Below the pieces are notes generated by a model. That model was not told where the DNA came from. It searched no databases and saw nothing but the letters and a program-made list of their open reading frames with translations. From Caldimicrobium thiodismutans (GTDB lineage: Bacteria > Desulfobacterota > Thermodesulfobacteria > Thermodesulfobacteriales > Thermodesulfobacteriaceae), in assembly GCA_002877875.1 (NCBI GenBank), contig PNIE01000005.1, forward strand, positions 1 through 36,024: a DNA stretch of 36,024 nt, given 5' to 3'. The translations under genes were made by a program, and so were the position numbers. Numbering within the stretch: position 1 is the stretch's first letter; each line of letters begins with the position of its first letter. Positions 20,981-23,670 of this stretch are shown one piece after another.

Positions 20981-22300
20981 ATGCAGTATATAAAATGTGG
21001 AGCAGAAAAATTTGAATTTGAGATTAAACCCTTAGGGGGGTTATGCAAGCGTTGCCAAAAAGAGATTCCCGTTGTTTCTCTTACTACTCAGAATTTAAAG
21101 CTTTGCAAGTCTTGTTTTAATGCTATTCAAGAAAAAAGAGTTTATGAGACTGTTAAAAAATTTCGTATGTTTAATAAAGAAGATAGAATTGGGATTTTCC
21201 TTTCTGGCGGAAAAGACAGTGCAAGTTTAGCTACCCTCTTAAAGCGACTCTTTCCTGATTATTCCTTTCAAGGAATTTATCTTAATTTAGGAATTGGATA
21301 TTACTCTGAATATGCTGAAAAAACGGTAAGAGAATTGTGCGAAAAAATTGAGCTACCTCTCTTTGTGTATAATCTCCCCAAAGAAGAGGGTTTCTCTATT
21401 GATGAATTTGTTTTTACTAATTTTAGAGATAAGATTTGCTCAGTCTGTGGTGTCATAAAGAGATATTTATTTTCCAAGATGGCTAAGGCCCTTGGTCTTA
21501 CAGTTATTGCTACAGGACATCATCTTGACGATCTCCTCTCCACCTATTTAACCCTTTTTTTCAATGGAGATTTCCTTTCTTTAAAAAGGTTGTCGCCGGT
21601 AAATCTACCCTTGTATCCAGGCCAGGCTAAAAAGGTCAAACCCCTTTGCCAAATTCCTGAAAGGGAGCTTTTTTATTATGCCATTTTGAATGAACTTCCT
21701 TTAGAGGGATGTGCCTGTCCTCACGGAGAAATAACCCCTGCCAAAAAAATAAAATTCCTCATTGAGGAACTTTCGAAAGAGAATAGAACTTTTAAATATC
21801 AATTAATGTCAGTGTTTTTAAATAAATTTTTACCCTTGCTAAAAGAGGAAATTAAGGAAGAGACTCAGTTTAAACCTTGTTTAAGATGTGGTGAACCTAC
21901 AGCCTCAGCCAATGAACTATGTAATCACTGCCGAAGGATTGAACTCTTAGAGAGAGTAAAAGATAGAAGGCTTGAGTTAACCTTTGAAGAGTGGTTGAAA
22001 TATTCTCAAGGGGAATCCAAAGAGAGCTGGGTCATTTTTGATGTAAGAGAAAAGGAGGATTATTTAAAAGGCGCTTTACCTGAGGCTAAGTGGATTTCTA
22101 AAGATCTCCTTGAGAATGAAAGAGAGCTTATAAAAACTTTTAAACCCTTTAGAGATAAAAACCTTCTCTTTTACTGCTATACTGGAAGATTGAGCTATTT
22201 TTTTACCTTAAAATTAAGAAAGTTAGGATTTAAAGCTTATAATTTGAAACATCCTGAGGAAATTTTCAATAAAGTTGATACTTTACAAAAAAATGTTTAA
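20981..22300 (+). CDS. TtuA/TtcA-type tRNA 2-thiolation enzyme with fused C-terminal rhodanese domain
   Basis: The start is probably ATG 20981 (439 aa); the track's TTG 20894 adds 29 unlikely residues, though no strong ribosome site marks either. Two N-terminal CXXC pairs (CKRC, CKSC) form a zinc finger. The ATP-pyrophosphatase loop is FLSGGKDSASLA. Cysteines CSVC and the later CACPHG match the three ligands of the [4Fe-4S] cluster in TtuA, and a second zinc finger follows (CLRC...CNHC). Residues after about 350 form a rhodanese domain with IFDVREKEDYLKGA and a catalytic loop CYTGRLS. TtuA makes 2-thiouridine at tRNA position 54 in thermophiles; the fused rhodanese could deliver persulfide sulfur. 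Confidence 0.85.
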   Translation: MQYIKCGAEKFEFEIKPLGGLCKRCQKEIPVVSLTTQNLKLCKSCFNAIQEKRVYETVKKFRMFNKEDRIGIFLSGGKDSASLATLLKRLFPDYSFQGIYLNLGIGYYSEYAEKTVRELCEKIELPLFVYNLPKEEGFSIDEFVFTNFRDKICSVCGVIKRYLFSKMAKALGLTVIATGHHLDDLLSTYLTLFFNGDFLSLKRLSPVNLPLYPGQAKKVKPLCQIPERELFYYAILNELPLEGCACPHGEITPAKKIKFLIEELSKENRTFKYQLMSVFLNKFLPLLKEEIKEETQFKPCLRCGEPTASANELCNHCRRIELLERVKDRRLELTFEEWLKYSQGESKESWVIFDVREKEDYLKGALPEAKWISKDLLENERELIKTFKPFRDKNLLFYCYTGRLSYFFTLKLRKLGFKAYNLKHPEEIFNKVDTLQKNV

Positions 22301-22332
22301 AATAATTAAAAATTATAAGCAAAGGAGTTGCC

Positions 22333-23670
22333 ATGGTTAGATTGGCTTTGGAAAGAGATTTACAAATCCTAAAAAATTTATTATTGGATATGGCTACCTC
22401 TGTTAGTGAAATGACTAGTGGAGCGATCCTTGCCTTTGAAAAACTTGAGGAATATAAGGCTAAAAAAGTCATAGAATTTGATAATCAAATAGATTATATG
22501 GAACACATGGTAACTCTTACCGCCCTTGAAATTGTTGCACTTCAGCAACCTGTAGCCAAAGATCTGCGGTTTATAGTTAGCTCCATAGATATCGCCAGAA
22601 ATCTTGAAAGACTTGCTGACCAGGCAGTGAATATTGCAGAAAGAGTGGCTAATCTTCTAAAATACAAGGATCATCTTCTTGTTTCTTGTAAGCTTAATAT
22701 TTTGGATATGGCAAGGGAAGCCCTTTTAATGCTTGAAAATGCCATTAATGCTTTTATTTCTGAGGATACAGAAAAGGCAAGAAGAGTTATAGCTCATGAT
22801 GATGTGGTGGATGAACTAAAAAGAGAATATATTAAACAGATAAAAGATTGTATGAGAGGAGATCCTTTACTTGTAGATGCAGGGGTAGAATATATTATAG
22901 TGGTTCAAAATCTTGAGAGAGTGGCAGATCTAGCTTGTAATATTGCAGAGGGTGTGATCTTTACTGTTGAAGGAAAGATGCCCAAGATAGAGAAAGTCAC
23001 TCTTCCCACAGTTCATGAGTTGCTCTTAAAGGAACTTCCTGTCTTTGATTATCTTCTCAAACATGCCAGGCTTGTCCTTGAATGCATAGAAAGACTTCCT
23101 TTAGCTTTTGAGGCCTATTTTAAACAAGATAAATCTCGCCTTGAGGAAATTGTAAGACACATTATCGAAATAGAAAGAGAGGCAGATAAAATAAAAACTA
23201 ATATTAGAGGACACCTTCCAAAGGGCCTTATTTTACCTGTAGAGAAATTTGAACTCTTTCTTTATTTAAAAGAACAAGACGCTATAGCTGATTCTGCTGA
23301 GCAAATCTTAACCTGGCTTTCCTTTAAAGAGATTAAATATCCTGAAGAGTTTTCTCAAAAACTTGAAGACTTGCTTTTGCAGAGTATTGAACCTTTAAAA
23401 TACTTTGAAGATATGATTAAATACTCCGGAGATTTTCTTATTACCTGGAATGAAGATTCAAGAAACCGGGCTAAAGAGCTCATTAGAGCCATTCGCTATA
23501 AAGAATTTTTAACCGAAGAGGCTGGCAATCAATTGAAAAAGTTCACCTTCGAGAGGCTAAGTGATCCAATGGAACTTTTATTTACTCTAAAGCTTATTGA
23601 TCTTATTTGCGATATTCCAGGTCACGCAGAAAATGCTGCTGACCTTATGAGAGCTATGATAGCCAAATAG
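22333..23670 (+). CDS. PhoU-DUF47 fusion, phosphate-signalling/transport accessory protein
   Basis: 445 aa, AAGGAG upstream. Residues 1-215 are a full two-repeat PhoU: FDNQIDYMEHMVTLTALEIVALQQPVAKDLRFIVSSIDIARNLERLADQAVNIAERV, then a second copy with HDDVVDELKREY and NLERVADLACNIAEGVIF. These contain the E/DxxxD metal-binding motifs of PhoU. Residues about 225-445 resemble DUF47, the PhoU-like partner of Pit phosphate transporters: ERLPLAFEAYF, IIEIEREADKIKTNIRGHLPKG, LKEQDAIADSAEQILTWL and LIDLICDIPGHAENAADLM. No Pst or Pit gene is adjacent. PhoU usually restrains phosphate uptake via PhoR and Pst; here the exact partner is unknown. Confidence 0.85.
   Translation: MVRLALERDLQILKNLLLDMATSVSEMTSGAILAFEKLEEYKAKKVIEFDNQIDYMEHMVTLTALEIVALQQPVAKDLRFIVSSIDIARNLERLADQAVNIAERVANLLKYKDHLLVSCKLNILDMAREALLMLENAINAFISEDTEKARRVIAHDDVVDELKREYIKQIKDCMRGDPLLVDAGVEYIIVVQNLERVADLACNIAEGVIFTVEGKMPKIEKVTLPTVHELLLKELPVFDYLLKHARLVLECIERLPLAFEAYFKQDKSRLEEIVRHIIEIEREADKIKTNIRGHLPKGLILPVEKFELFLYLKEQDAIADSAEQILTWLSFKEIKYPEEFSQKLEDLLLQSIEPLKYFEDMIKYSGDFLITWNEDSRNRAKELIRAIRYKEFLTEEAGNQLKKFTFERLSDPMELLFTLKLIDLICDIPGHAENAADLMRAMIAK

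Follow-up and report, generated by a model that had tools for sequence, protein, structure and literature searches.

Several routes have been described by which sulfur is brought to tRNA thiolases. The Thermus rhodanese TtuD channels sulfur to the ubiquitin-like carrier TtuB (PMC8584467, PMC6225789), and a rhodanese-type sulfur relay by TtuD or Tum1, in the TtuB and Urm1 pathways, is assigned to s2U and s2T synthesis (PMC6225789). In the ThiI of Escherichia coli type, the s4U8 synthase, a rhodanese is fused to the PP-loop thiolase itself and accepts persulfide from a desulfurase (PMC8584467, PMC10067955). Other thiolases do without a dedicated carrier or cysteine desulfurase: the TtuA of Thermotoga maritima, which has no TtuB, and the NcsA of Methanococcus maripaludis are proposed to use sulfide in PMC7138817 and PMC10067955 (for sulfide serving TtuA where ttuB is absent, see also PMC8584467), and no fused rhodanese is described for either in the papers covered by our literature search. 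Free sulfide works in vitro, and reviews point out that it has yet to be proved in vivo (PMC6225789, PMC8584467).

The window that we analysed is a stretch of 36,024 nucleotides, positions 1-36,024 of contig PNIE01000005.1, from the Caldimicrobium thiodismutans assembly GCA_002877875.1, a MAG of 1.30 Mb that is 84% complete. On its forward strand, positions 20981..22300 form a single ORF of 439 aa that joins a TtuA to a rhodanese. The ATG at 20981 was taken as the start, as most of the aligned relatives have a methionine at this place, the stop-to-stop frame being longer. Pfam recognizes ATP_bind_3 (E 5e-10) and Rhodanese (E 2.6e-10, residues 346-423) in the protein, both above the curated cut-offs, and no THUMP domain, the mark of ThiI, was matched up to E 1. 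Among NCBIfam models TtuA comes first (184 bits), followed by NcsA (100) and TtcA (87). The 184 bits do not reach the 450-bit cut-off of this TtuA equivalog model, NF049949, though it is the best one; because its name points to a Pyrococcus-type TtuA, we read the low score as divergence more than as another function. The nearest PDB entries by sequence are the TtuA structures 5mko/3vrh and 5gha (E about 1e-38), and the nearest by predicted structure are 5mkq, 5ztb and 5gha (TM 0.87 over the TtuA part). The prediction for the full-length protein is confident (pLDDT 93.7, pTM 0.91), so that in the model the two domains appear to be set in a definite arrangement.

The motifs agree with this assignment, and all of them lie on the forward strand. 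The N-terminal zinc ribbon (C22/C25/C42/C45, 21044..21115, alignment A2) is followed by the ATP pyrophosphatase PP-loop motif SGGKDS (21203..21220), of which S75, G76, G77, D79 and S80 are invariant in a 70-row alignment of TtuA, while K78 is kept in 90% or more of the rows. The putative [4Fe-4S] cysteines C153 and C156 in the motif CSVC (21437..21448) and C246 (21716..21718) are invariant in the same 70 rows, as is the C-terminal zinc ribbon (C300/C303/C314/C317, 21878..21931). K160, which ends the segment CSVCGVIK, is invariant in alignment A1 and kept in 90% or more of A2; it aligns with Lys137 of the T. thermophilus TtuA, a basic residue whose role is treated in PMC7138817. In the genomes that carry the fusion, the fused protein is the sole TtuA-like match, the other matches, PP-loop proteins or rhodaneses, being weaker and in most cases shorter. 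Judged by its family, the gene would thus encode the only TtuA of the organism, a [4Fe-4S] ATP-dependent 2-thiolase. It shares with the T. thermophilus and Pyrococcus horikoshii enzymes (5gha, 5ztb, 5mko, 5mkq) the PP-loop, the three cluster cysteines, the two zinc ribbons and the fold, but differs from them by an identity of about 30%, by its place in a separate deep clade, by a cysteine in the N-terminal ribbon where the unfused relatives have a histidine at the fourth position, and by the extra C-terminal domain. After the ttuA gene comes a PhoU-family gene (20981-23670 for the pair); this pair, with lepA and signal peptidase genes nearby, recurs in the genomes G001, G006 and G015, and other neighbours of ttuA are found in G011 and G017.

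The rhodanese domain (PF00581) occupies 22016..22249, an interval that was also recovered in the genome search, and it is predicted as an alpha/beta fold with block pLDDT mostly at 90-98. Its active-site loop, C399-Y-T-G-R-L-S (22175..22195), is intact, so that the TtuA-type thiolase with a C-terminal rhodanese and a complete Cys loop, as described in the original prediction, is borne out by Pfam, NCBIfam, the PDB relatives and the motifs, CYTGRLS included. A foreign origin of the domain was considered from its composition and set aside, GC3 being equal (29%) in core and rhodanese. In joining a PP-loop tRNA thiolase to a C-terminal rhodanese, the protein resembles ThiI; ThiI, however, has THUMP and NFLD domains and, in E. 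coli, no cluster, whereas the fusion has the [4Fe-4S] TtuA core and a rhodanese cysteine that is dispensable in relatives. Unlike it, TtuD and Tum1 are separate proteins that act toward their carrier and are not joined to the thiolase.

The same fused ORF is present in 20 other genomes, at 50-79% identity, which rules out chance or an assembly artefact. The 21 genomes, window included, belong to three genera (g1, g2, g6) that form one clade within Thermodesulfobacteriaceae, and the relatives found by name are Caldimicrobium and Thermodesulfobacterium. They comprise T. hydrogeniphilum DSM 14290 (G017), T. thermophilum DSM 1276 (G019) and T. hveragerdense DSM 12571 (G022); C. thiodismutans is probably G001, T. 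commune G013 and T. geofontis G015. In the tree, the fused proteins group together with full support, on a long branch, so that the fusion is an old one, made once, in a divergent TtuA. In the family's other genera g4 and g5, and in the rest of the phylum as sampled, the TtuA matches end before the rhodanese, and most of them are of 300-345 aa; among the other TtuAs listed from 395 genomes of the phylum the fusion was not found. A scan of named genomes, with patterns biased to the fused clade, likewise found none outside it. No description of a TtuA-rhodanese fusion was found in the passages of the open-access literature that we consulted.

The loop is covered in 20 of the 21 fused sequences, since one (L020) ends at a contig end before it. 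It reads CY[ST]GRLS in 11 of them, namely in all six aligned rows of the window's own genus (window included), in g2 and in four Thermodesulfobacterium; it is altered to CYSEKLS or CYSKKLG in two, and has no cysteine in seven. The cysteine is thus not conserved in relatives, which is one of the two observations that the original prediction had named as telling against it. The catalytic residues of the TtuA part are unchanged in all 20, including the seven Cys-less and the two altered ones. On the tree, the loss of the cysteine needs at least two changes, with weak support near the base.

With regard to carriers, the original prediction held that a direct persulfide supply could bypass a sulfur-carrier protein and proposed a check for ttuB and ttuC. 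In the window's 84% complete genome we found no ThiS-type carrier, even at a relaxed E-value, no ThiF-type E1 and no dedicated ttuB or ttuC, the carrier partners of Thermus type. The closest relative, G005, has an operon of ThiF-rhodanese, NIL, ThiS, ThrC, JAB and a CysK-like gene. At the syntenic site of the window's genome, the flank is conserved at 80% DNA identity and adjoins the last 38 codons of the ThiF-rhodanese gene (L217 6653-6766, G000:C88), after which come unrelated genes. This remnant indicates that a deletion removed the operon at this site, and incomplete assembly is not the whole reason for the absence; the carrier-free setting looks real, although a carrier may lie elsewhere in the missing part of the MAG. 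For reading the ThiS matches as TtuB there is no support, as no copy neighbours ttuA in the regions that were read: the copies inspected in g1 and G024 are beside NIL, ThiF-rhodanese and ThrC, with JAB and CysK-like genes as well in G001 and G005, and those inspected in G013, G021 and G009 are beside an aldehyde ferredoxin oxidoreductase (gene names by eye). Weak ThiS matches in G006, G017 and G001, in frames of ~730 aa, are presumably TGS domains of RelA/SpoT, by their length and position. The operon of G001 and G005 (L093 5098-9388, L094 5693-10020) resembles one for thiocarboxylate-dependent cysteine (or homocysteine) synthesis, as it contains ThiF-rhodanese, NIL, GG-ended ThiS, threonine-synthase-like, JAB peptidase and CysK-like genes.

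Across the clade, the presence of ThiS and ThiF and the state of the loop do not match, and we therefore rejected, as a general rule, that the lack of carriers is what keeps the rhodanese in place. No match to either ThiS or ThiF passes the cut-off in G015, G017, G025 and G026, where the cysteine is lost, in G010 and G012, where TtuA is unfused, and in G006, where the loop is intact (the ThiF matches of G006, G017 and G026 are short and fall under it). In G001, G002 and G005 an intact loop occurs together with ThiS and ThiF-rhodanese, which are in a cysteine-synthesis-type operon that is not beside ttuA, so the pairing of an intact rhodanese with a missing carrier does not hold; G024 has a dead loop together with ThiS and ThiF. 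As TtuA is carrier-free in the four Cys-less and the two unfused genomes, the rhodanese is not needed for carrier-free work, and its bypass fails as a general rule. For the window itself the proposed direct supply keeps part of its ground: the lack of ThiS and ThiF, the operon remnant, and the presence of a cysteine desulfurase-family enzyme and of TusA, both possible persulfide sources, speak for it, and the loss or alteration of the loop in nine relatives speaks against it. A sulfide- and polysulfide-rich habitat, also invoked there, does fit; however, direct use of sulfide by TtuA fits it at least as well (PMC7138817). Such a use, reported for the Thermotoga enzyme, would in our analysis explain carrier-free work better than a rhodanese bypass.

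With regard to the substrate, the window's genome encodes both TrmFO, which makes m5U54, and MnmA, which serves U34. This fits an action of TtuA at U54, the position that we infer for it. In G024 (92% complete), the fused TtuA is present and no full-length match to TrmFO was found. We give an even chance to the following reading: a sulfide-using, carrier-free TtuA, likely converting m5U54 to m5s2U54, to which the rhodanese adds an accessory and dispensable inlet for sulfane sulfur. The enzymes of the fused family would work without a dedicated TtuB/TtuC carrier, and the [4Fe-4S] enzyme would most likely turn the m5U54 of tRNA into m5s2U54, and most of the sulfur would arrive at the cluster's open iron as free sulfide. 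A persulfide may form on C399, from cysteine desulfurase, TusA or polysulfide, and the rhodanese would then pass its sulfur on within the polypeptide, to the cluster. This inlet would be of use in cells that exchange sulfane sulfur by way of many rhodaneses, and its activity would have been lost, with the scaffold kept, in the lineages that abandoned such rhodanese-based sulfur traffic.

That the fused rhodanese is instead the principal sulfur donor, directly replacing the ubiquitin-like carrier as in ThiI of E. coli, seems unlikely to us. The invariant loop in the window's own genus, in g2 and in the four Thermodesulfobacterium agrees with it, as do the deletion of the carrier operon in the window's genome and the precedent of ThiI, a PP-loop tRNA thiolase that likewise carries a rhodanese (PMC8584467), but it has to face the seven relatives that lost the cysteine while keeping an intact TtuA core, four of them without ThiS and ThiF, the unfused carrier-less TtuAs of G010 and G012, and the intact rhodaneses that stand alongside ThiS and ThiF in G001, G002 and G005.

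The way in which the domain decays is among the grounds for our preferred reading and bears as well on a further, slightly less probable explanation, in which it is mainly structural or tRNA-binding and its sulfurtransferase chemistry is incidental or for something else. R356, C399, Y400, G402 and R403 are shared throughout the intact group and are missing from the degenerate one, which keeps K385, F387, Y406, L410, L412, K414 and F417 of the scaffold, and the rhodanese/core divergence ratio is 1.71 in the degenerate group vs 1.17 in the intact one. The Pfam rhodanese match is gone in the four Cys-less proteins scanned (L014, L016, L018, L021) and retained in L012 (altered loop) and L007 (intact loop). 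The scaffold residues and the predicted fold thus outlast the catalytic loop, for the Cys-less G015 protein a single well-ordered chain is still predicted (pLDDT 92, pTM 0.90), and the domain carries a positive net charge in every row that has it complete, all of which would suit a structural or tRNA-binding role. What argues otherwise is that the five catalytic residues are retained together in 11 of 11 rows with an intact loop, whose overall identity is about 55-79%, a sign that catalysis is under selection in the lineages concerned. As for a TtuD-like role, with sulfur passing from the rhodanese to a shared ThiS-type carrier (CysO- or MoaD-type) and then to TtuA, it recalls the separate Thermus rhodanese (PMC8584467, PMC6225789) and the GG-ended ThiS proteins and ThiF-rhodanese of close relatives, but we hold it to be quite improbable given the loss of the operon from the window's genome, the intact rhodanese of G006 with neither ThiS nor ThiF above cut-off, and the location of the carriers in CysO/JAB/CysK-like/ThrC or AOR neighbourhoods, away from ttuA.

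The accessory inlet of our preferred reading can be set beside the number of rhodanese domains per genome, which is 5-11 in ten intact-loop relatives, 1-2 in eight degenerate-loop genomes, and three in the window's own, 84% complete MAG. The loop state tracks this number, a link that is suggestive only and may be due to shared ancestry, because the loop states are clustered on the tree and the independent events are few. Among the other rhodaneses of these genomes, we observed three-repeat rhodanese-like proteins with one in-frame TGA in the loop region of the first repeat, in G011 (L087), G013 (L088), G019 (L089), G022 (L090), G006 (L092), G002 (L070) and G004 (L068). The contexts read YCEGPR-U-ALTP and YCGGPT-U-PFSP, with U a likely selenocysteine; the related L091 (G004) and L072 (G006) have no TGA and read GGCLSP at that place.

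As to what the fusion could mean, the series of intact, altered, dead and absent rhodaneses tentatively suggests a one-polypeptide relay, in which the rhodanese would load persulfide sulfur directly onto the TtuA cluster, with no ubiquitin-like carrier, and would be gained or lost with the sulfur supply of the cell. Cultured species of the clade share the same TtuA with a rhodanese that is intact in T. thermophilum and T. hveragerdense and dead in T. hydrogeniphilum, so that the contributions of protein persulfide and of free sulfide to the supply of the TtuA/Ncs6 cluster in carrier-less organisms are directly comparable.
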